A DNA stretch of 64,000 bases, taken from positions 1-64,000 of IMG/VR virus record IMGVR_UViG_3300009149_000022. One strand, written 5' to 3'. The notes under the pieces are model-generated. The model saw only the letters and a list, made by a program, of their open reading frames with translations. It was not told the DNA's origin and made no database searches. Positions within the stretch are counted from its first letter, which is position 1. The number at the start of each line of letters is the position of its first letter. The translations under genes were made by a program, and so were the position numbers. Origin of the DNA: a virus. Below, one piece after another: positions 3,059 to 40,757 of this stretch.

Positions 3059-3673
3059 ATGAAAAAAATAACCGAAATTATAAACGAGGCTGAAAAGTCT
3101 AAAAAACAAAAAGAATATCAAGATTTTTTTGATAAAAAGTTGAAAAAATATGGTGTTGAATCCCCCGCTCAATTGTCTGACGAAGATAAGAAAAAGTTCT
3201 TTAACGAAGTAGACAAAGAATGGACGGGTGAAAAGGTAGACGAAAAAATAGTAGAAGATGATTTTGATTCCGAGGCAGACGAAGAATCTGAAATCCTGAA
3301 AGATGACGAAGATGACGAAGATGACGAAGATGACGAAGATGACGATGATGAAGAAGATGAAGAAGATGAAGAACATGACGATGATGAAGAAGATGAAGAT
3401 GACGAAGATGACGATGATGAAGAAGATGACGATGATGAAGAAGAAATTGATGAATCATTGAATGAGGCTGCATCTATGGATAATAAATCAGTAGATAATA
3501 TTGTTAGTGAACTTATAAAATTCAAAAACACACCAGGTGCCTTTGGTCAATTAGTAATGGATATTGTAGAAAGAATATACGACAAAAGTGATGACAAAGA
3601 ACTTACAGTGGCAGTAATTAACAACGCCGTTAAAAACTTATCACAAGTCAGTAAAGAACTTAACAAAAGGTAG
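3059..3673 (+). CDS. Hyper-acidic protein with capsid-targeting-like leader
   Basis: 204 aa. Residues 1-10 (MKKITEIINE) followed by Ala match the T4 capsid-targeting sequence pattern (MKTYQEFIAE then Ala), cut by the prohead protease after Glu10. A mixed-charge segment follows, then residues ~82-128 are almost pure Asp/Glu, encoded by a gatgacgaa-type repeat. A second possible gp21 site, LNE followed by Ala at E136, separates the acidic tract from a normal C-terminal domain (NIVSELIKFKNTPG onward). I infer a protein packaged in the prohead core whose acidic part may be scaffold-like or DNA-mimicking. No named homologue. A strong terminator follows. Confidence 0.8.
   Translation: MKKITEIINEAEKSKKQKEYQDFFDKKLKKYGVESPAQLSDEDKKKFFNEVDKEWTGEKVDEKIVEDDFDSEADEESEILKDDEDDEDDEDDEDDDDEEDEEDEEHDDDEEDEDDEDDDDEEDDDDEEEIDESLNEAASMDNKSVDNIVSELIKFKNTPGAFGQLVMDIVERIYDKSDDKELTVAVINNAVKNLSQVSKELNKR
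3302..3447 (+). repeat. Low-complexity Asp/Glu codon repeat
   Basis: Imperfect 9-nt repeats (gatgacgaa and gatgatgaa forms) encode an unbroken Asp/Glu tract. They create long spurious open frames (poly-Ser, His/Leu-rich) on the opposite strand. Confidence 0.85.
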
Positions 3674-4896: not shown

Positions 4897-6099
4897 ATGG
4901 CAGGATTACAACACCTATTTGATATTTACAATAAACAAGGGAAAGAATTCATCACAGATTTATTTAGTAAAGAATTAGTCGTTTCTGAAAAACCCGATGC
5001 GTCAATTTTTTCTGTACAACAAAGGGAAGATGGTACTATCGACTTTTTCAAAAGAGATGATAGACAACCAATTTCTGCATTAGATAGAACGATAATATCA
5101 CTATACGAACCACCTATAGAATATTTCGAAAAGAAAATAGGCAATAAAAAACTACCACATAATCTTAGATTCGGTTTCGAATACTTTCAAAACACAAACC
5201 CCGTGGCCATTTCATATGATCGTTTACCTAAAAATGGACTAGTGTTAACACATATGAAAGAACTAGATAATAAAGGTAAAGTTAAAAAATTTATAGATGA
5301 TCCAAAAACACTAATCAAATGGTCCAAATATTTTGATGTCGAAGAACCTTTTATAATTTTTGATGGAAAACTCAGTGAACTTCAAAAACAACAATTAGAA
5401 GAGTTTTTAAAAACACCATTTGAAGAATTAGTTTCTAAATTTCAAACATCTTCTTTTACGAAATATATTATATCTATATTAAACCCCAAATTAAAGAAAA
5501 CCGCGTTAAACAATACAATAGATAAACCAATAGAAGGTTTAGTATTTAAGTTTAATGATGGTGAATATTTAGCAAAGGTTGTAGACCCCTTGTTTACACA
5601 AATGTCTAGAACCAAAGCAATGGAAAGAAAAGAAAACAATAGTAGTTCAGATGAGTTTGCGTTGGTTTTATACACTTTTATCAATTGGGTAGAAGAACAC
5701 GACATTTTTAAAAACATGATTGCTGATGGTAAAAACGAAGACGAAAAATACGTAGATTTGATGACAAGAACATCAAAAAAATTCATTGATGAAAATAAAA
5801 TCTTTTTAAAGGGATTAAACATAAAAAAACCAGATTTTGCAAAAGCACCAGAATTTGCATTAAATACTAAATTGATAAGGAGTCGAGATGTAATCGACTT
5901 TATTAAAAAAAATAAAGAATACGAAGAAGTTTTTAAAATTTTACTTTCTGGTTTCAAGAAAACTAGAAAGAGAAAAACCAACATGATTGATGATAACTTG
6001 AAAAATCAAATAAATGGTGTTGTTAATCAAATTAAAAACATCACATTAAAAACAAACGAAACATTCCTTTCTTTTAAAGATTGGAAAAAAATGCTATAA
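4897..6099 (+). CDS. Polynucleotide (RNA) ligase-like nucleotidyltransferase
   Basis: 400 aa. A lysine at 32 in the motif EKPDAS resembles ligase motif I (K-x-D-G), the site of AMP attachment. Further on, FEYF (~107), IEGLVFKF (~204, motif IV-like EGxVxK) and YLAKVVDP (~216, motif V-like K-x-x) occur in the order expected for the covalent nucleotidyltransferase superfamily of RNA/DNA ligases. The C-terminal ~180 residues are helical and unassigned. I infer an RNA ligase-like enzyme; the Ala in place of the motif-I Gly is unusual. It sits between a pol-beta-type and a HIGH-type nucleotidyltransferase. Confidence 0.55.
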   Translation: MAGLQHLFDIYNKQGKEFITDLFSKELVVSEKPDASIFSVQQREDGTIDFFKRDDRQPISALDRTIISLYEPPIEYFEKKIGNKKLPHNLRFGFEYFQNTNPVAISYDRLPKNGLVLTHMKELDNKGKVKKFIDDPKTLIKWSKYFDVEEPFIIFDGKLSELQKQQLEEFLKTPFEELVSKFQTSSFTKYIISILNPKLKKTALNNTIDKPIEGLVFKFNDGEYLAKVVDPLFTQMSRTKAMERKENNSSSDEFALVLYTFINWVEEHDIFKNMIADGKNEDEKYVDLMTRTSKKFIDENKIFLKGLNIKKPDFAKAPEFALNTKLIRSRDVIDFIKKNKEYEEVFKILLSGFKKTRKRKTNMIDDNLKNQINGVVNQIKNITLKTNETFLSFKDWKKML

Positions 6100-6120
6100 A
6101 CTAAAAATAATATATATATC

Positions 6121-6369
6121 ATGTCAGAAAATAAAAAAGAAATAAAAGAAAAAGAAGAAATTAAAGTAGTGGATGAAGTAATAATTGAAGAGTCTGTTGT
6201 AGAAAAAAACATAGAAAAGGTTTCTGAATCCAAAGAAAAAAAGTCAAAGAAGTCTAGTAACAAAAAAGAAATAGTTAACTTAACACACGATTTAGTAACA
6301 TATTCAGATGGTAGTACTGAAAAGATAACGACAAGAAAACAACATTCAGATTTAAGAAACAAAAGATAA
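6121..6369 (+). CDS. Small Lys/Glu-rich protein
   Basis: 82 aa with a highly charged N-terminal half (runs of KEIKEKEEIK) that is probably a helix or disordered. The C-terminal segment is more ordinary (NLTHDLVTYSDGSTEKITTRKQHSDLRNKR). It lies between the ligase-like gene and a terminator, so it is probably the last gene of that transcript. No family recognised. A structural or nucleic-acid-binding role is possible given the basic C-terminus. Confidence 0.65.
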   Translation: MSENKKEIKEKEEIKVVDEVIIEESVVEKNIEKVSESKEKKSKKSSNKKEIVNLTHDLVTYSDGSTEKITTRKQHSDLRNKR

Positions 6370-6385
6370 ATTAAAACTTTTAAGG

Positions 6386-6417
6386 AAAAGAGGAATTCAT
6401 AAATGTTCCTCTTTTTT
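6386..6417 (+). terminator. Rho-independent terminator
   Basis: Stem AAAAGAGGAA / TTCCTCTTTT followed by T residues, ending the operon that begins at 3761. Confidence 0.85.
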
Positions 6418-6422
6418 GTTTT

Positions 6423-6431
6423 TATTAAATA
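6423..6431 (+). promoter_or_regulatory. Late-promoter-like motif TATTAAATA
   Basis: Immediately follows the terminator and is 18 nt before the ATG at 6450, the same spacing class as other examples of this motif in the window. Confidence 0.5.
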
Positions 6432-6449
6432 AGAAAACATCTGAACACA

Positions 6450-8315
6450 ATGGCAAATGAAGATTTAACAAGAAAAGATATAATAAGTGAACTTAAAAAC
6501 ATGGAATCAGAAAACGATCAATCTAATTTAGAACCTATTAATGTAATAATAGGCAGATTTACACCATTTACTATTGGACATCTTAGTATGGCCAAAGAAT
6601 TGAAAAAGATCAACGACCTTGATTCGGTGTACATATATATAAGAAGTAAAAGTGGTAAAAACTCTAAATTCAGTGACCGATTAGTCACAAACTATATGAC
6701 AGATGTAGTTCAAAAACAAGATTTAGTAAGAGATGCTTGGTCAATGACAGCATCATTCATACCAATTATAATAAAAGAAACACAACGAAGGGGATATAAC
6801 CCCATTCTCATAGGTGCTGGTGAAGACAGAGCAAAATCATATGAAAATATGGCAAAAAGAATGAAAGATATACAAGTAGATCCAGAATTTAAAATACAAG
6901 AACTTAAAGGTAGGATAACGTCAGCGACCGAAGTTAGACAAGCTATAATGGATGATGACAAGAAAAAGTTTATGAAACTTACACCTAAAGAAATTCATCC
7001 ATACTATAAGCAATTACAAGACGAATTAGAAAAATTGAACACTATGATAGAATCAATAAGCGTCGTTGATATAATGGATGGAATAGACCTTACTGTTGAA
7101 GAAGTTGAAAGTATTTTAGAAAGTAATGATGAAGATTTCTTTTCGCATCCCATTATTGTAGAAAGTATTTTAGAACAAGAAATAGAAAATAAAAAAAATG
7201 AGATGAAATTAAACGAAAAAGAGGAAAGTGTGTTATTAGTAATGCCATCAACCTTGACCGATTTAAAAAACTTCAAAAAATGGTTAGATAATTCTGATTT
7301 CTATGCTGAAGACTACGGTGATTATTTTGTGTTTCAAGAAGAAAATATAGATTCTTTGGAAAAGACTATAGAAAAAGAATTATCTAAAAAGAAAATATCC
7401 GTTAGATATGAAATACAAGAAAGTTTTAAAGAAATTATAGAATCTGTTAAATTATCTAGTGATGCTAAGAAATTCATTAAAGCAATGCAAAAAATTAAAT
7501 TAGATAAAGATTTTGCAAAATCATGGATGCCGGGACACAAATATATTTACACTGATGGTACAAAATATTACTTTATTGATTCTGATGGTGACACTATGGA
7601 ATTGAAAAATACAGAAACTTTAAAACATTTGAAAAAGACTTTTGAAAATGTAAATGAAGATCTTTTCGAAAATCCTGAATTTTTACCTAAAAAGGTACAA
7701 GACCTTATTTATGATATGGGTGATGGTACATATGACTATAGGGATTTGAGAAAGTTACAAAAAAAGTTAGAAAAATTAGGATATACGTTTGATTATGGGT
7801 TAGATGCACAACCATATGATTTAAGAAAAATAGATGAAAACTTAGAAGATATAGATTTAGAAAAAATAGTAGAAATTACTAAATTGTCTATGTCCGTTGC
7901 ACACACAAGTGTTTTTGAAAAGGCTTTACAATTTAGAAAATGTGAAATAACATATGAGGATTTACAAGATAAAACAGAAACAAATGTTGTTTCCTTTTTG
8001 GCTAAATTTAACGAAAGTAAATTATTAGACTTTAAAAACTATATAACTGAAATGACGGTTAGTCCAGAATATGGTGCTAAAATTGATAATGCATTATTAC
8101 TATTAGTGAATAGTAATAAACCTATTGTTTGGGAAGATTTTAAATCTTATATGATTAGAACAGAATTCTTTAAGAAAGAATTTAAACCCTTTTTGATGAT
8201 GCAAGGATTATCTGATTATCAAATTGATAGATTTGTTGAAAACATACTTAGGGTTAAGTATCAACACTATACAAATTATTTCAAGGGTACAATCTCGTTG
8301 GAATATACAAAATAA
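6450..8315 (+). CDS. Multidomain protein with N-terminal nucleotidylyltransferase (NMNAT/cytidylyltransferase-like)
   Basis: 621 aa. Residues ~30-175 form a HIGH-family nucleotidylyltransferase: GRFTPFTIGHLSMAKEL carries the G-x-F-x-P-x-x-x-G-H signature, and ITSATEVRQAI fits the C-terminal (I/S)SxTxxR motif. Known members adenylate NMN or cytidylate small substrates. The remaining ~440 residues are unassigned; a segment near 265-330 may be an alpha/beta domain, and the C-terminus is helical. T4-like phages such as KVP40 are known to carry NMNAT-type enzymes for NAD salvage, so this is a reasonable guess for the N-terminal domain. The large C-terminal extension is unusual. Confidence 0.65.
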   Translation: MANEDLTRKDIISELKNMESENDQSNLEPINVIIGRFTPFTIGHLSMAKELKKINDLDSVYIYIRSKSGKNSKFSDRLVTNYMTDVVQKQDLVRDAWSMTASFIPIIIKETQRRGYNPILIGAGEDRAKSYENMAKRMKDIQVDPEFKIQELKGRITSATEVRQAIMDDDKKKFMKLTPKEIHPYYKQLQDELEKLNTMIESISVVDIMDGIDLTVEEVESILESNDEDFFSHPIIVESILEQEIENKKNEMKLNEKEESVLLVMPSTLTDLKNFKKWLDNSDFYAEDYGDYFVFQEENIDSLEKTIEKELSKKKISVRYEIQESFKEIIESVKLSSDAKKFIKAMQKIKLDKDFAKSWMPGHKYIYTDGTKYYFIDSDGDTMELKNTETLKHLKKTFENVNEDLFENPEFLPKKVQDLIYDMGDGTYDYRDLRKLQKKLEKLGYTFDYGLDAQPYDLRKIDENLEDIDLEKIVEITKLSMSVAHTSVFEKALQFRKCEITYEDLQDKTETNVVSFLAKFNESKLLDFKNYITEMTVSPEYGAKIDNALLLLVNSNKPIVWEDFKSYMIRTEFFKKEFKPFLMMQGLSDYQIDRFVENILRVKYQHYTNYFKGTISLEYTK

Positions 8316-21761: not shown

Positions 21762-23141
21762 ATGAGAATTAATGTTATAGAAAAATTCGGACTATATGAA
21801 AAATTAAGTGATTTATCTAAGGGTCTTAACGAACACGAAGAATCTCAAAATATTTGCAACAAGGCTATTCATGATTTGAAAAGTGAGTTCACTGACAATA
21901 AATTTAATTTATATCTTGAACAATTGAAACAATATGATTGGATTACAGAAATAGAAAACTTTATTGAAGATGTTAAAACATTTTTAAATGAAAATAAATA
22001 TGGTGTGCAACTAGAAAGAGTTATGAACAAATTATCTGGTATAAGTGCATATGCACCAATAGTAGAATCAATCAAAGAAATCGTTGCATTAGATGAGTCT
22101 GAAATAAAGTCAAAGATATCTTCTTTGAGTAAATTCAAATTCGAACCTAATATTAAAAAGTTAGTAGAGGGGTATGAACAATTGGAATTCAATGTTCAAA
22201 AAACACAAAAAGCTGAAATTACAAGCGCACCAATAACACCTGTTATGCAATTAGAAGAAGGATTTGTATTTGCATCTAAAAGTGGTAATTATGTCGTATC
22301 GAATGACATTACTAAAGTTGAAAAATATGATGGTAAATTAACTAATGAATTTACAAAAGCAAAAGCTGCCTTGAACATATTCAAATATAAAGGAGATAAT
22401 ACTTTTGAAGCTAAATTGAACAAAGCCACTATCACTTTGACTACTAGTGATGAGGGAAACAAAATGACAGTGAACGAAAGTGAAATTGAAAATAAAACAC
22501 AATTGACTAAGTTATTGAAAAATGCTGGTTTGGTAAATTATACCGATACTAACACAAGATCACTAATTGAATTTATGTATGAAAAGGCAAATGAATTTGT
22601 AGAAGTTGATTTTGTTAAATCAATAGAAACCATCAACGAAAAACTAGAAGTGTTTAAGATGTCAAACAACGAAGTTTCTGTTGCAAAATATGATAAGAAA
22701 ACAAGAGGGTTTGTTTTAGAATCTTTGGATCTAGAAGACATTGAAGACCTTTCTGAATCTTTGAAAAAAAGTTATGATTTAGATTTCAATAATGTTTTAG
22801 AAGGTTTACATATCAATGTTGAATCTTTAGAATTTAAATCACTAGTAGAAAGTATAGATACATCTAAGGTTATTGATATGACTAAAACAGATGAAATCTA
22901 TTCTAAAATAGAAGAAGCAAATTCTAAATATAACGAATTGAATGTTGAAAACAGAAAAAATGTTGAAAACGAATTCATTAAATTACAAGAAAAAGAAAGT
23001 ATATTAAAAGCTGATGAGGTTTTGTTCTTAATAGAAACTAAAAAGGCTTTGATAGATAAATTAGACGAAAGTGAAGAATTATCTAAATCAATAGAAATGT
23101 TGAATGATGAGTTAGTAACTTTTGTAACTGAAAAAGTTTAA
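21762..23141 (+). CDS. Large helical protein of unknown function
   Basis: 459 aa, predominantly alpha-helical and charged with repeated Glu/Lys-rich stretches. A beta-type segment around residues 165-230 (GFVFASKSGNYVVSNDITKVEKYDG, then ATITLTTSDEG) stands out. It has no membrane segment and no recognised family. It has its own late-type promoter motif and terminator, between the tail completion gene and the sigma factor, so it is probably a virion or assembly protein. Its size and helicity would suit an internal head or core protein, which is speculative. Confidence 0.75.
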   Translation: MRINVIEKFGLYEKLSDLSKGLNEHEESQNICNKAIHDLKSEFTDNKFNLYLEQLKQYDWITEIENFIEDVKTFLNENKYGVQLERVMNKLSGISAYAPIVESIKEIVALDESEIKSKISSLSKFKFEPNIKKLVEGYEQLEFNVQKTQKAEITSAPITPVMQLEEGFVFASKSGNYVVSNDITKVEKYDGKLTNEFTKAKAALNIFKYKGDNTFEAKLNKATITLTTSDEGNKMTVNESEIENKTQLTKLLKNAGLVNYTDTNTRSLIEFMYEKANEFVEVDFVKSIETINEKLEVFKMSNNEVSVAKYDKKTRGFVLESLDLEDIEDLSESLKKSYDLDFNNVLEGLHINVESLEFKSLVESIDTSKVIDMTKTDEIYSKIEEANSKYNELNVENRKNVENEFIKLQEKESILKADEVLFLIETKKALIDKLDESEELSKSIEMLNDELVTFVTEKV

Positions 23142-25195: not shown

Positions 25196-26812
25196 ATGGC
25201 ATCTATATTTAATAGAACGGGAGTTAATAGTAACAATTCCGATGTTAATAACAAATCATTTAGAAACACAGCACTTAGAAAATTATCAGGTAGGGGATAT
25301 GATTTCAAAGATTCAGTTATTACAAATTCCGAAGCCATAGGTAGTATCGAAAACAAAATAGGATGGGAAGAAAACAATAATTTATTGAGGTATGGATATG
25401 ATTCTAATAATATGGATCAGTTATATGATTTTTCGTATTCTGATGTATATTCTAAAAAGAATATACCATTCTTTGACCAAAACTACCCATCAAAAATAAA
25501 ACAATTAAGGACATATGCACTACAAGATGAAATAGAAATGATCCTTGACACACTTACGGACGAAATAGTGGTTTATAATACCGATAGATATTTTGCTAAT
25601 ATAGAATGGGAAAGTGACCCGAACATGAAAGAAGAGTTTTCTGCTATTATCAAAGATAGTTTAAATGAAAACTTTAAGAAGATATATAATCTATTTGGTT
25701 TTAAGAACGAAAATTCAGCATGGGATTTTGTCAAAAAATTTTTAGTTGATGGGTATTTATCTTACGAAATTATATGGGACAGCAAAAAAATAAATATAAT
25801 AGGATTTAAAGAATTAGATCCAATATCACTAACTCCAAAAATATATGAAGACGGTACTAGAGGATGGGTACAATATCCATTAGATCAAGTCAAAAAAAGA
25901 GAGTTATCGGATGCACAAGTTATATTTCTAGCTTTTTCCGCAATTAATGGAGAAAATAGAGTTTCTTATACCGAAAGACTAATACGATCTTTTAACATAT
26001 TAAGAATAATGGAACAAACTAGAATTATTTGGGCTGTTGTTAATAGTTCATATAAAACAAAATTTGTTATACCCGTTGGTGGTAAATCAAAAACTATGGC
26101 AAAACAAACCCTTGGTTCTTTGATGCAGTCATACAGAGAAAATGTCAATTTCGATAACGAATCGGGAGAGTTAAAGATAAATGGTAAATCTATGATGCCA
26201 TTTTCAAAAGAATATTGGATACCTGAAGGTGACCAAGGAACACCAACAATAGAAAATATCGGAAACGACGGTCCAGATATGTCAGATACTGAATCTTTAA
26301 AGTATTTTGTTGATAAATTAATACAAGTATCCAAGATTCCAAGAAATAGATTTGTTAAAGAAGAAAGTCCAACTTGGGAATCATCTCCGGAAGGCTATAC
26401 AAGAGAAGAAATATATTTTGGTCGATTTATAGATAGATTAAGGGGTAAAATACAAGAAGTTGTATTGAAACCAACCATTTTACAAACAAAGAGAGACATT
26501 AAAGAATTGGCGGAAGATCCAATGTTTGATTCAAAGGTAAATTTATCTTGGGTCAAATATGATGTATTTGAAAAATTAAAAGAAACTGAATTACTACAAA
26601 GAGAATTAGATTTAATTAGTTCGGCTAAAGATTCTCTAATTGATTATGATGCAGATGGTAGTGAAATTAGATTCTTTAGTTCTGAGTTTTTGGTTAGGAA
26701 ATATCTAACATCACTAACAGAAAGTGATTTAAAACTCAATAGAAAATTGAAAGAACAAGAAGACAAAAATATAGAAAATTCATTAGACACTGATGACGAA
26801 ACTGACTTTTAG
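25196..26812 (+). CDS. 20: Portal vertex protein gp20
   Basis: 538 aa, close to T4 gp20 (524 aa). Characteristic segments: LRTYALQDEIEMILDTLTDEIVV (~105), DGYLSYEIIWD (~182), the stem region, and the highly conserved DKLIQVSKIPRNRFVKE (~376). The dodecameric portal initiates prohead assembly and forms the DNA channel. It is followed by the protease-scaffold and capsid genes in the usual T4 order 20-21-22-23. Confidence 0.92.
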   Translation: MASIFNRTGVNSNNSDVNNKSFRNTALRKLSGRGYDFKDSVITNSEAIGSIENKIGWEENNNLLRYGYDSNNMDQLYDFSYSDVYSKKNIPFFDQNYPSKIKQLRTYALQDEIEMILDTLTDEIVVYNTDRYFANIEWESDPNMKEEFSAIIKDSLNENFKKIYNLFGFKNENSAWDFVKKFLVDGYLSYEIIWDSKKINIIGFKELDPISLTPKIYEDGTRGWVQYPLDQVKKRELSDAQVIFLAFSAINGENRVSYTERLIRSFNILRIMEQTRIIWAVVNSSYKTKFVIPVGGKSKTMAKQTLGSLMQSYRENVNFDNESGELKINGKSMMPFSKEYWIPEGDQGTPTIENIGNDGPDMSDTESLKYFVDKLIQVSKIPRNRFVKEESPTWESSPEGYTREEIYFGRFIDRLRGKIQEVVLKPTILQTKRDIKELAEDPMFDSKVNLSWVKYDVFEKLKETELLQRELDLISSAKDSLIDYDADGSEIRFFSSEFLVRKYLTSLTESDLKLNRKLKEQEDKNIENSLDTDDETDF

Positions 26813-26871: not shown

Positions 26872-28794
26872 ATGAAAGATTTATTATTAATAGAAAAATC
26901 CAAATTTTCTGTGAAATCAACAAGTGATTCGGATAAATACACCCTAGAAGGTGTATTTACAGAATTTGATTCAGAAAACCGAAATGGTAGGGTATACACA
27001 AAAAAAGAATTTCAACCACACTTTGATGCACTGAAAAGGGTAGTAGAAGATGGTACTTGTGTTGGGGAACTAGATCACCCAAAACAATTCGAAACTACAC
27101 TCAGAAACGTTTCTCACAAAATAGAAGATATTTGGATGGACGAACAAAACAACCGTGTTATGGGTAGAATAAAACTTTTAGATACGGATGCTGGTAAGCA
27201 AGCAAAAGCACTAATAGATGCTGGAATACCTTTACACATTTCATCAAGAGCCGCTGGTACAGTAACAGAAAACAAAAGTGTTAAAATCCACAAACTATTT
27301 ACATATGACTTAGTTGACACACCGGGTTTTGAAAATGCTCGTTTGAAAAGTAGTGTTAATGAATCGTTTGGATTCTTAAATGAAAGCACCGAACTTGATA
27401 GATTTAGTGATTTTGCTATATATGAAGTTCAAAAACAAATTAAGCAAGATATGAACGAATTAAATAATAAAAATAAAGAAATTGAAAAAATGGATTATAT
27501 CAAGGAAAGTGAATTCAACGCATATACCGATTTCACCAAAGAAGCAATCGAAAGTGTTAAAACGGAAATCAAAGAACTACAAGAAGTGCAAGAAAGTATC
27601 ATCGAACAAAATGATAGTATTGTTGATGAATATAGTAATGCTGATTTCAAAGGAAGGTTAGATACTGTTGATGAAAAATTGACTAGTATTGAAAATAAAA
27701 TTAAAACACTAGAAGAAAGTAAAGATTCTGGTAAAGAATTAACTTCTAGTGACGAAACCGTAGAATATCACGTTGGTGATAAATTCGAAGGGAAAGTGAT
27801 TAGAGCGGTTGAAAAAACTGATGATGGTAAAACAACATTATATTTCGAAAGTGATGATGATGCAATGATTCTAGAAAACAAAATAGAAGAATCATCTTTG
27901 GCAAAACCAGACACTTTACAAGTTGGACAACAATATAAAGACAAAGGAACAATCACATCTATTGAAGTTCAAGATGATGGTGGTACTAAAGTATATATAG
28001 ATTCTATGGATGAACCTATTATTTTACCATCACCATCAAAGGTTGATAATATCATAGATGATAAAACTTTACAAGAAAAGTTAGATAACATGGAAACGAA
28101 ATATGCAGATTTAGAAGCAAAATTCGAAGCTATGATTAAATGGTCTAATCACACAACAGATACAGTTAGTGCATTAGAAAAGTGGTCAGATCACGCTACT
28201 GATACTATTTCAGTGGTTGAAAATTGGTCAGATCATGTTACTGAAACCGTAACAGGTATAGAAAATTGGTCAGATCATGTTACTGAAACCGTAACAGGTA
28301 TAGAAAATTGGTCAGATCATGTTACTGAAACCGTAAGTATGTTAGAATCGGTTGACAATAAAAAAGAAAACGATACCACTAAAATCAACGAAAATAAAAT
28401 CAACGATTTTAAAGCGAGTATATATAATAAACTAGAGAGTATTTTAGAAGATAAGGAGCAAAAGTCTGATAACAACGAATCTCTAAATGAGTCTAAACAA
28501 AAATCAGCAGAAAAAAGTGAAGCACCTTTGTGGATGCAAATGATTCCTGCAAAATACAAGGAAACTTGGGAAAGTTTAGACGAAGTTGAACAAATAAGAA
28601 TCACTAATCGAGCGAATCTTTTTGAGTTCAAAACACAATCTGCAATCAAAGAATTTTGGAACAATGAATTGACAAAAGAAAATTTGATTAAAGAGGAAAA
28701 ATCACAACCGGAATTGAGTGTTGAAGAAAAACAAGCACATCTCAACGAAAAAAGAATGAAAGCTGTTAACGGATATAAGAACCTTTTCGGGTAA
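26872..28794 (+). CDS. 21: Prohead core protease fused to scaffold (gp21-gp22-like fusion)
   Basis: 640 aa. Residues 1-165 are the T4 gp21 (S80-type) protease: VFTEFDSENRNGRVY (~28), GELDHP with the catalytic His (~69) and LHISSRAAG with the catalytic Ser (~124), then VDTPGFENARL. Residues ~175-640 are a long charged coiled coil like the gp22 scaffold, including five 14-residue repeats. A gp21 consensus site FLNE followed by Ser (E171) lies at the junction, and another, SLNE followed by Ser, at E540. Thus one polypeptide probably delivers protease and core and is then self-processed. T4 makes these as separate genes. Confidence 0.85.
   Translation: MKDLLLIEKSKFSVKSTSDSDKYTLEGVFTEFDSENRNGRVYTKKEFQPHFDALKRVVEDGTCVGELDHPKQFETTLRNVSHKIEDIWMDEQNNRVMGRIKLLDTDAGKQAKALIDAGIPLHISSRAAGTVTENKSVKIHKLFTYDLVDTPGFENARLKSSVNESFGFLNESTELDRFSDFAIYEVQKQIKQDMNELNNKNKEIEKMDYIKESEFNAYTDFTKEAIESVKTEIKELQEVQESIIEQNDSIVDEYSNADFKGRLDTVDEKLTSIENKIKTLEESKDSGKELTSSDETVEYHVGDKFEGKVIRAVEKTDDGKTTLYFESDDDAMILENKIEESSLAKPDTLQVGQQYKDKGTITSIEVQDDGGTKVYIDSMDEPIILPSPSKVDNIIDDKTLQEKLDNMETKYADLEAKFEAMIKWSNHTTDTVSALEKWSDHATDTISVVENWSDHVTETVTGIENWSDHVTETVTGIENWSDHVTETVSMLESVDNKKENDTTKINENKINDFKASIYNKLESILEDKEQKSDNNESLNESKQKSAEKSEAPLWMQMIPAKYKETWESLDEVEQIRITNRANLFEFKTQSAIKEFWNNELTKENLIKEEKSQPELSVEEKQAHLNEKRMKAVNGYKNLFG
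28138..28347 (+). repeat. Five 42-nt (14-codon) tandem repeats in the scaffold domain
   Basis: Units start at 28138, 28180, 28222, 28264 and 28306 and encode variants of NWSDHVTETVTGIE (two heptads each). Units 3 and 4 are identical at DNA level, implying recent duplication. Confidence 0.9.
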
Positions 28795-28803
28795 GATTAA
28801 ATA
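28795..28803 (+). promoter_or_regulatory. Late-promoter-like motif GATTAAATA before the capsid gene
   Basis: 20 nt before the ATG of the major capsid gene, the most highly expressed gene expected in the window; among the best-placed examples of the motif. Confidence 0.6.
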
Positions 28804-28823
28804 AAGAAAAATAAGTTGTTAAA

Positions 28824-30488
28824 ATGAACAAAAATCAATTATTAGAAAACTGGTCACCAGTAATCGAACAAACAATTGGCACAAACGTAGACGCTTCTAA
28901 AAAACATTTAGTAGCGACCGTGTGTCAGTTACAAGAAAACTACGAAGCTAGATTGGCTTCTGGTGGTTTAAATGAAAATAACGCATATGCAACATTAGGT
29001 TCTGTGAACGGCATGGGTGGTGTGCAATTACCATCTACAACTGGAAACGGTTGGTCAACTGGTGCTGATGGATCGGGTGATGTACCTTATTCACTATTAC
29101 CATTGGCTATTCAAGTAGCGGCACAAACAATTGGTTTGGAATTAGTTCCAACTATTCCAATGAATGCACCAGTAGGTATGTTGTCTTATATGGATTTCGT
29201 ATACGCGGGTGGTAAAAATGGTTATGCACCACTAAACGATATTTATGCAGCCGGTACTGATGGAAAGTCTCCAAACTCTCCTATTTACATCAAAGCTGAA
29301 TTAGATGCGTATACATTAGCTACTAAAGGAGCAACTGCTTCTATCGGTGGTGAAGCTGTTACTATACTTGGACAATCTAGAATAGATGGTTATTCAATCA
29401 TTAAATTACCTAGAGAACTTTCAGGTTCTAACACGATGGCATCTTTGATTCCATCTACAACTACGGGTGCTGCACCAGTAACTATTACTTTTGCTGGTGG
29501 TACAGCAGGTATCATATCTAAAGCTGAACTAGTAAAAGCATTGGAAGATCACGTTATTGATTTTTCAACAAACCAAGGAGCTGATACATTCAACCAAGTA
29601 GATAAAATGTCAAGACTACAAGGAGAAACTACTCCAGCTAACGTAGGAAACTTGCAATTATTTTCTAAAGCTGTTGAAGCTAAGACTGTTCAAGCTGCGG
29701 CTGCGGTAACAAGAGAACAGTTGATGGACTTGAAACAATTTGGTATAGATGCAGTTGCACAAGCAAACCAATTCTTAGCAAATGAAATGACGCAAGTTAT
29801 CAACAAAGACGTCTTGGGTGAAATATTTGCACTAGGTTTGACTAACCATAAGAATATCGAAGCTGTAAGTGGAAGAAATTATCACTTGATCTTAGATAGT
29901 ACTGCAACTACTTACACAGTAGGTACTACACCAGCAACAACTGGTAACTTCTGGGAATATTTCGGTGCCGGTACTGTTATTAATGGTATTGATGCAGCTA
30001 ACTTAGGTGCTGAAAACTTAGGAACAAGACAAAGACGATTAATGTCTAGAATGCTTATGACCTCAAACATTATCTCAGTAAGAGGTAGAAGAGGACCAGC
30101 CACATTTGCAGTTTGTTCTGCGGGTACGGCTAGTGGATTCCAAGATTGTGCAGGATTCGTTCCTTACCCAATCGCAAACACCATCAATCAAGTACCGGGT
30201 GCTTTATACCCACTAGGAACTTTAGTTGGAATTGCAATCTACGTTGACCCTAACATGTCATTCGAAGATGGTAGAATCGCAGTAGGTAGAAAAGGTGATG
30301 GTAACACACCTGGTCTAGTATTCATGCCTTACGTTATGGCTGATACTGTTGAAACAATTGCAGAAGGTACTATGGCACCTAAACTTCAAATGAAGTCTAG
30401 ATATGCACTAGTTCACGCTGGACACCACCCAGAAACAATGTATCTTACATTGGGTGTTGATAATATTGTTGACCAAGTTTGGGCTTAA
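28824..30488 (+). CDS. 23: Major capsid protein gp23
   Basis: 554 aa (T4 gp23 is 521). An N-terminal propeptide (MNKNQLLENWSPVIE) ends at a prohead-protease site GLNE followed by Asn (E51), analogous to T4 cleavage at E65. The mature region starts NNAYATLGSVNGMGG and contains LVPTIPMNAPVGMLSYMDFVYAGG (~110), the conserved gp23 segment, and VTREQLMDLKQFG-like helices. Base composition is visibly richer in GC than neighbours, as often seen for highly expressed capsid genes. Forms the hexameric head lattice. A strong terminator follows. Confidence 0.95.
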   Translation: MNKNQLLENWSPVIEQTIGTNVDASKKHLVATVCQLQENYEARLASGGLNENNAYATLGSVNGMGGVQLPSTTGNGWSTGADGSGDVPYSLLPLAIQVAAQTIGLELVPTIPMNAPVGMLSYMDFVYAGGKNGYAPLNDIYAAGTDGKSPNSPIYIKAELDAYTLATKGATASIGGEAVTILGQSRIDGYSIIKLPRELSGSNTMASLIPSTTTGAAPVTITFAGGTAGIISKAELVKALEDHVIDFSTNQGADTFNQVDKMSRLQGETTPANVGNLQLFSKAVEAKTVQAAAAVTREQLMDLKQFGIDAVAQANQFLANEMTQVINKDVLGEIFALGLTNHKNIEAVSGRNYHLILDSTATTYTVGTTPATTGNFWEYFGAGTVINGIDAANLGAENLGTRQRRLMSRMLMTSNIISVRGRRGPATFAVCSAGTASGFQDCAGFVPYPIANTINQVPGALYPLGTLVGIAIYVDPNMSFEDGRIAVGRKGDGNTPGLVFMPYVMADTVETIAEGTMAPKLQMKSRYALVHAGHHPETMYLTLGVDNIVDQVWA

Positions 30489-37294: not shown

Positions 37295-37537
37295 ATGGAA
37301 AACAAACAAAACCAAAAACACAAAGTTACTAATATAAACGAAGCGGTTTCGATATTAAGACAAGCTGCCGAACTTGGTAGACAACGAGGTATATTCGAAT
37401 GGGGAGATTTAGATTTAATCAAACAATCTATGGATCTTTTAGATGAAGCCGCTGAAAATGCACAAAAAAATCAATCTACACCCAAAGTAGATAACGAAAC
37501 AAACGAAGTTGTATTAGAACCCACTAAACAACAATAG
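37295..37537 (+). CDS. Small helical protein
   Basis: 80 aa. Central amphipathic helix (NEAVSILRQAAELGRQRGIF, then EWGDLDLIKQSMDLLDEAA) and a Gln/Thr-rich tail. The IFEWGDLDLI segment recalls small proteins seen next to phage structural genes, but no function can be named. The stop codon is followed directly by the glycosyltransferase ATG. Confidence 0.65.
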   Translation: MENKQNQKHKVTNINEAVSILRQAAELGRQRGIFEWGDLDLIKQSMDLLDEAAENAQKNQSTPKVDNETNEVVLEPTKQQ

Positions 37538-40427: not shown

Positions 40428-40757
40428 ATGAAAGCATTAAACGAATTTTTGAACGAATCACAAAAACCAGAAAAATATTGGGACAATATTTTTAAAAAGG
40501 CAATAAACAAATTTTCTTATTGGGAAAAATCAGACGAAAAGGCTGACATCGTAAATAGCATTAGACAAGCATATAATGAATTAGAACTTGATGTTCTTAA
40601 AGGTGAAAAGGGTTATGTTGAAATGATTGACAACAAAAAATATTGGGACCAACCAAAAGAATATACTAAATTTGCAACAGACATTTGGAATAAACTCAAA
40701 GGTAATATATGGGCAAAACAAAACGCACTTGAAGATTACTTAGATTGGTTAAAATGA
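40428..40757 (+). CDS. Protein with capsid-targeting-like leader
   Basis: 109 aa. Residues 1-10 MKALNEFLNE followed by Ser closely match the T4 leader MKTYQEFIAE, predicted to be cut after Glu10. The remainder (SQKPEKYWDNIFKKAINKF onward) is Trp/Tyr/Lys-rich and helical. It forms a single-gene transcript with its own late-type motif and terminator, as expected for an abundant internal head protein. No named homologue; possibly injected with the DNA. Confidence 0.75.
   Translation: MKALNEFLNESQKPEKYWDNIFKKAINKFSYWEKSDEKADIVNSIRQAYNELELDVLKGEKGYVEMIDNKKYWDQPKEYTKFATDIWNKLKGNIWAKQNALEDYLDWLK

Follow-up and report, generated by a model that had tools for sequence, protein, structure and literature searches.

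A fused S77 prohead protease-scaffold gene with a conserved internal start codon, probably expressed as a nested gene

The analyzed DNA is a 64 kb window (positions 1 to 64,000) of the 73.7-kb IMG/VR virus record IMGVR_UViG_3300009149_000022. On its plus strand, which carries all features described here, an open reading frame (ORF) at 26872-28794 encodes 640 amino acids (aa) in one uninterrupted frame, with an S77 prohead protease at the N-terminus and a scaffold part behind it. This ORF is probably a nested gene, from which both a full-length protease-scaffold protein and a free scaffold starting at the ATG of M207 (27490-27492) would be made, followed by self-cleavage at prohead maturation. 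In the original prediction, the gene was described as a self-cleaving core protein with protease and scaffold in one polypeptide and therefore at a fixed 1:1 stoichiometry, and an internal ribosome start was named as the finding that would speak against it. The single polypeptide was confirmed. The fixed stoichiometry is probably wrong, as an ATG is conserved at the scaffold start, and the comparison of related sequences speaks strongly for the internal ribosome start, including a start-like context and low structure.

The protease part comprises residues 1-164 (26872-27363). It matches Peptidase_S77 of Pfam at residues 22-136 (3.4e-13; 50 bits compared to a curated cut-off of 27) and the head maturation protease family phrog_207 at residues 11-254 (3.4e-44). 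The sole solved structure matching it was T4 gp21 (PDB 5JBL), with an E-value of 2.5e-6 for the single sequence and 2e-17 for a 15-sequence profile. The catalytic residues proposed earlier, H69 in GELDHP and S124 in HISSRAAG, were found to be invariant across the 15 homologues of alignment A1, a distant-family alignment that includes stand-alone proteases and is too divergent for use as a search query. The ORF begins 60 bases past the gp20 portal gene and ends 30 bases ahead of the gp23 capsid gene (Pfam). By every testable feature, namely the cut-off, the catalytic His and Ser and the position between gp20 and gp23, the protease can be assigned to the T4 gp21-type Peptidase S77 family.

When IMG/VR was searched with the protease alignment, at least 591 relatives were obtained and 80 of them kept. 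The comparison of fused genes or proteins covered 78 unique ones. All complete IMG/VR relatives among those kept (65 out of 65) are fused and bear the C-terminal domain of the scaffold part, and the capsid gene is located close downstream in nearly all of them. Since independent contigs and isolates are also fused, an assembly artefact or a lost stop codon was ruled out as the cause of the fusion. Fused homologues could also be identified in huge uncultured phages of 462-735 kb, in Lak phages and in PTm1, pT24, MA9V-2 and MaF61. Very long fusions were found in MA9V-2 (L019; 1207 aa, 12 [LIVM]NE[SA] sites) and the Flavobacterium phage MaF61 (L016; 1404 aa, 7 sites), and SP-15 and LIS04 carry fusions beyond the clade of the window. 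In RaK2, XacN1, Atu_ph07, RHph_N34 and an Aeromonas T4-like phage, the protease stands alone and has a length of about 200-230 aa.

For the analysis of the internal start, a search for Shine-Dalgarno (SD) sequences was uninformative, because an SD-like motif was seen for just 1 of the 68 genes in the window. It was replaced by a start-context model, which was built from the phage's own gene starts and applied in frame. In Flavobacterium and the Bacteroidota, initiation without an SD sequence is favored by an A at positions −3, −6, −12 and −13 and by low structure (PMC6847099). Two ATGs lie in frame just past the junction of the window gene, M194 (27451-27453) and M207, with contexts in the 97th and 90th percentile among the window ATGs, respectively. 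M194 has the best context in this gene and is a possible alternative start; it is absent in the relatives L027-L032 and is not conserved in the family. In MaF61, the inner Met230 ranks at the top by context.

In the alignment of the 78 genes, the conserved scaffold start was found to be [FY][VI][TSK]...Y[ST], with a Met just ahead of it and a preceding linker that is variable in length and sequence. An ATG 3-8 codons ahead of this start was identified in 75 of the 78 unique genes, compared to 11.5 expected from the Met frequency. The three exceptions have a GTG (L024), an ATA (L047) or are poorly aligned (L094). When the linkers are clustered, 21 of 23 clusters contain the ATG, compared to an expectation of 4.3 based on the number of Mets in each individual linker. 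The residue after the conserved Met is exclusively E, N, D, S or T.

The context model score was +1.20 for the conserved Mets and −3.69 for 765 other in-gene Mets (P 2e-30), and the folding energies were −3.4 and −7.5 kcal/mol, respectively (P 1e-27). These values are close to those of real gene starts (score +2.7, folding −3.0 kcal/mol), and both peak around the conserved Met. An A at position −3 was found for 81% of the conserved Mets compared to 31% of 782 controls. Because of the high Lys and Asn content of the linker, the upstream codons were recoded synonymously, resulting in a mean P of 0.33 at the conserved Mets and 0.465 at the controls (P 2e-5). The observed upstream codons thus resemble a start context more closely than their recoded versions do. 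This effect is confined to about three codons on either side of the Met.

Several points weigh against a nested gene of this kind. The 78 genes are related and the P values, which treat them as independent, are overstated. The A-rich context and the low structure are partly due to the composition of the Lys/Asn-rich linker, the context score is equally good 1-3 codons upstream of the conserved Met, and the effect of the synonymous codons is significant yet modest. In L027-L032 the context is middling (55th-83rd percentile), and L030 and L047 have an ATA. Nearby AUGs are only mildly depleted, with 1.17 compared to 0.27 at real starts and 1.77 at controls. Finally, the conserved junction between protease and scaffold could reflect folding and not cleavage.

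A rival possibility is that only the 640-aa protein is made and that protease and scaffold occur at 1:1, as in P2 gpO, which functions as one protease-scaffold protein (PMC7552001). The single ORF agrees with such a pure fusion, as do PTm1, pT24, MA9V-2 and L030/L047, which are fused without a good internal start and for which a 1:1 ratio is possible. A pure fusion is unlikely here, since a start codon with start-like context is kept at the scaffold N-terminus in the midst of a variable linker. The ratio in the T4 head of about 580 gp22 to 55-100 gp21 (PMC9958956, PMC5694885) also argues against it, and an excess of free scaffold is therefore expected.

The conserved Met could also serve protein structure or targeting, or be left over from a scaffold gene that was once separate, in either case without use for initiation; this explanation is given very little weight here. 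The scaffold gp155 of Sphingomonas phage PAU, in which the genes are split, starts with M-SKN-NLT like the internal site, so that an origin of the fused family from separate genes is conceivable; the profile match at this position is not significant. A fixed role in the protein fits poorly with the variable distance of 3-8 residues between the Met and the following helix, with the restricted choice of the next residue, with the GTG that replaces the ATG in L024 and with a codon choice biased toward an A-rich context. The survival of a relic in 21 of 23 divergent linkers is hardly expected, and in the protease tree PAU seems to have split late from fused ancestors. An internal start at M207 is therefore preferred.

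The second part of the proposed expression scheme is the self-cleavage. T4 gp21 cuts after L/I-X-E and bears a matching LIE-9 site close to its own N-terminus (PMC9026906). A predicted counterpart in the window protein is LLIE8|K (26893-26895; the bar marks the predicted cut), and 76 of the 78 fused proteins carry a site of the L[IVL][IVL]E type in the vicinity of their N-terminus. At the junction, the motif [LIVMF]xE[SANG] is located 9-11 residues past PGF in 76 of the 78 unique fused proteins. In the window it corresponds to the predicted site VNE164|S165 (27361-27366), and E164 belongs to the nearly invariant set of the 15-sequence alignment including the stand-alone proteases. The sites FLNE|S at E171, SLNE|S at E540 and GLNE|N at E51 of the capsid protein, which had been proposed before, are all present at these positions. 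FLNE171|S172 (27382-27387) does lie at the junction, but it is not the best conserved site there: LNE is kept in close relatives only, mostly as LNE|N, and is missing from L024 and L030. As the main junction site it was replaced by E164, seven residues before.

Within the scaffold, a motif scan identified the predicted sites INE507|N (28390-28395) and SLNE540|S (28489-28494). KINE[NS] is kept in most close relatives and LNES in all of them except L030. In the tail, [LIVM]NE[SA] occurs 3 times compared to 0.13 in shuffled sequences and the looser motif [LIVM]xE[SAG] 8 times compared to 2.3 (P 0.0005); a similar excess of cleavage motifs was found in most fused relatives. The predicted maturation site of the capsid protein, GLNE51|N (28974-28979), has an E51 that is invariant in 10 homologues despite a variable N-terminus, the other nine being 30-82% identical to the window's protein. 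All these sites are predictions from sequence. They are in line with the proposed self-cleaving polyprotein, for which the junction is a likely and conserved self-cleavage site.

The scaffold part in its predicted free form (M207-640, 27490-28794) has a length of 434 aa, is acidic in composition and coiled. Tail helices at about 175-283 and 397-494 were found in a low-confidence AlphaFold2 model; this full-length model, calculated from 9 sequences, is poor (predicted local distance difference test, pLDDT, of 50) and its fold supports no claim. The C-terminal helical domain (residues 551-605, 28522-28686) is conserved and was detected by a hidden Markov model in fused relatives and in a separate ORF of PAU. 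Modeled from 51 sequences, it reached a pLDDT of about 88, and it is a candidate for the capsid- or portal-binding end. Foldseek found no meaningful PDB match for this domain; the top viral matches were weak, and further prohead scaffold-protease proteins were among them. A match of the C-terminus to phrog_5754 was weak, had no function attached and was set aside. With the free scaffold alone, tblastn gave no matches in named phages, and the homology of the scaffold is thus visible by profile only.

The description of the tail as a gp22-like coiled coil holds for position and character, but not for sequence homology to gp22. Since the C-terminal domain showed no homology to gp22 of the Aeromonas T4-like phage or to the protein in the gp22 slot of RaK2, the tail is not filed as gp22, although it would work like gp22. 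The tail could instead be a long targeting propeptide of the protease, with the scaffold encoded by a separate unrecognised gene, which is considered very improbable. A precedent is the C-terminal region of the SPN3US protease, which is self-cleaved off and was inferred to target the enzyme (PMC5694885). The absence of detectable gp22 homology and other coiled or acidic candidates in the head region, e.g., the protein of 21762-23141, are also compatible with a propeptide. Contrary to this, the tail of about 350-630 aa ends in a conserved domain and occupies the gp22 slot between gp21 and gp23. No gp22, gp67 or gp68 gene was found between the portal gene (25196-26812; Pfam Portal_T4, 1e-57) and the gp23-family major capsid gene (28824-30488; Pfam Gp23, 8e-30) of the window. 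In addition, no second copy of the C-terminal domain was found in the 73.7-kb record, and in PAU the same domain follows a separate coiled ORF beside the capsid gene.

For the preferred nested gene, the following course of head assembly is proposed. The full-length product (1-640) would be an S77 prohead protease with the scaffold as its C-terminal domain, and the scaffold end would bring the protease into the assembling core. The second initiation at ATG 27490 would yield the 434-aa free scaffold, probably in excess, which would form most of the core. By analogy with T4, the nested start would supply this excess and load the protease through the common scaffold end. Once the prohead is complete, the protease would cut itself at LLIE8|K and VNE164|S, with E171 as a backup. 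It would also cleave [LIV]xE sites of the scaffold, E507 and E540 among them, and trim the capsid protein at E51. The fragments would exit and the DNA would enter. We infer the use of the internal start, the ratio of the products, the cleavage, its timing and the targeting role from these sequence features.

In phage lambda, Nu3 starts from an internal in-frame codon within C. In herpesviruses, the short scaffold comes from a nested gene that is transcribed separately, and P2 gpO is not known to include a nested scaffold. The arrangement found here, with one frame observed and an internal start predicted, would work like lambda C/Nu3 and herpesvirus UL26/UL26.5. Lambda gpC/gpNu3 is likewise a protease-scaffold fusion accompanied by a free scaffold, which is predicted for the window; its protease is from a different family (S49, ClpP-like) and its host uses SD starts. 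For lambda and P2, protease and scaffold were described to be encoded in one gene (PMC8508860), and the overlap of Nu3 with C is credited there to Shaw and Murialdo (1980). UL26/UL26.5 (UL80/UL80.5) also consists of a protease-linker-scaffold protein and a shorter scaffold with the same C-terminus, with self-cleavage in between, and the fusion was described as a convenient way of bringing the protease into the procapsid (PMC7920273). The shorter form is derived from its own transcript in herpesviruses and presumably from internal translation in the window. P2 gpO is similar in its N-terminal protease (residues 1-141), C-terminal scaffold (residues 195-284) and self-cleavage (PMC7552001), and differs in its protease sequence and its length of 284 aa. 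The fusion of protease and scaffold as such is already known from P2, lambda, Mu and herpesviruses.

Compared to T4 gp21/gp22, the window has a homologous protease with the same catalytic places, L/I-X-E sites including the N-terminal LIE site, the same location between gp20 and gp23 and the N-terminal site of the capsid protein. In T4, protease, scaffold and gp67/68 are separate genes, whereas the window has one frame and a scaffold that is not homologous by sequence. The Tenacibaculum phages PTm1 and pT24 have a homologous fused S77-scaffold protein with the same C-terminal domain; their protease is more remote and their junction lacks the internal ATG. Such proteins are already present in GenBank, some of them (PTm1, pT24) under the name 'prohead core scaffolding protein and protease'. 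The literature searched, which included only a minority of the subscription papers, yielded no description of an S77 protease that is fused with a scaffold or nested with it.

The original prediction had suggested a check of relatives for separate genes 21 and 22. The complete IMG/VR relatives are all fused; in PAU, by contrast, the homologous protease (gp151) and the scaffold (gp155) are encoded by separate genes with small genes between them. The C-terminal scaffold domain of PAU is encoded in a separate ORF adjoining the capsid gene (hhalign 96.5%, 7e-10), after the coiled gp155. In the protease-domain tree, the clade of the window (support 99/97) consists of 28 fused rows with PAU nested inside. 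PAU seems to have descended from fused ancestors and to have gone back to separate genes later. The hosts of the fused-gene clade seem to be Bacteroidota. Probably, such a nested gene is kept in a large clade of Bacteroidota phages within the T4 superfamily, some of them huge. The protease:scaffold ratio would be set by an A-rich, SD-independent internal start, apparently by convergence with lambda and herpesviruses, and the gene would later have been split in PAU.

The autocleavage of gp21 was described as a major gap (PMC9026906), and the arrangement is relevant to the loading of the protease into T4-type cores and to the role of gp21 self-cleavage. If it is correct, the protease is loaded by scaffold molecules that carry it as their N-terminal domain, and its dose is set by the initiation frequency at the inner codon. 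The solution known from lambda and herpesviruses would then have another, apparently convergent counterpart, based on an S77 protease and its own scaffold. The arrangement also provides a rule for annotating a widespread group, huge phages among them, for which databases list a 'protease' and no scaffold, and a natural contrast between genes fused with an inner start, fused without it and split (PAU).

In PAU (L006 8931-9080, the end of gp155), a run of nine A between gp155 and the ATG-less ORF with the scaffold C-terminal domain was observed, which suggests a frameshift or a slip in sequencing. In L041-L045, including a 413-kb contig, the portal is 40-46% identical to that of the window and no S77 protease was found in the flanks examined; as in Lak, the genes for the head may lie scattered in these contigs. 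The Rfam scan of the window gave no matches.

Within the scaffold coil, repeats of about 14 aa (WSDHVTETVTGIEN) were found at 28141-28338. They have the form WSDHVTETV(T/S)GIEN and their copy number differs between relatives; a function as a ruler is possible. The LR7565xx phages have analogous repeats (YSEYIAENLDKNIA). Two small beta modules that resemble each other, VEYHVGDKFEGKVIRAVEKTDDGKTTLYFESDD and LQVGQQYKDKGTITSIEVQDDGGTKVYIDS, also lie in the coil at 27772-28040 (residues 301-390), and this block is missing entirely from L027-L029, L030 and L032.

The 459-aa protein of 21762-23141 has the N-terminus MRINVIEKFGLYEKLSDLSKGLNE|H and further LNE/VNE sites and is a candidate for a second core protein. 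Small proteins that begin like the T4 capsid targeting sequence and have a likely protease site are encoded at 40428-40757, 3059-3673 and 37295-37537. The same kind of start was found at record positions 64118, 64793, 65325 and 65523 (G000, beyond the window; L046). Examples are MKALNEFLNE|SQK, MKKITEIINE|AEK, MKSLSEYEKSINE|K and MKNIKEYNKLLNE|K. In 16 of 45 cases, [LIVM]NE is located within the first 25 residues, compared to 8% expected (P 2e-7). The small proteins may be packaged into the head and injected. In PAU (L006 ~5180-8230), several small genes have MKTLTQLYEA-like starts, with LNE|A in gp153 and gp154, which repeats the pattern of targeting and cleavage of the window's small proteins in a split relative.

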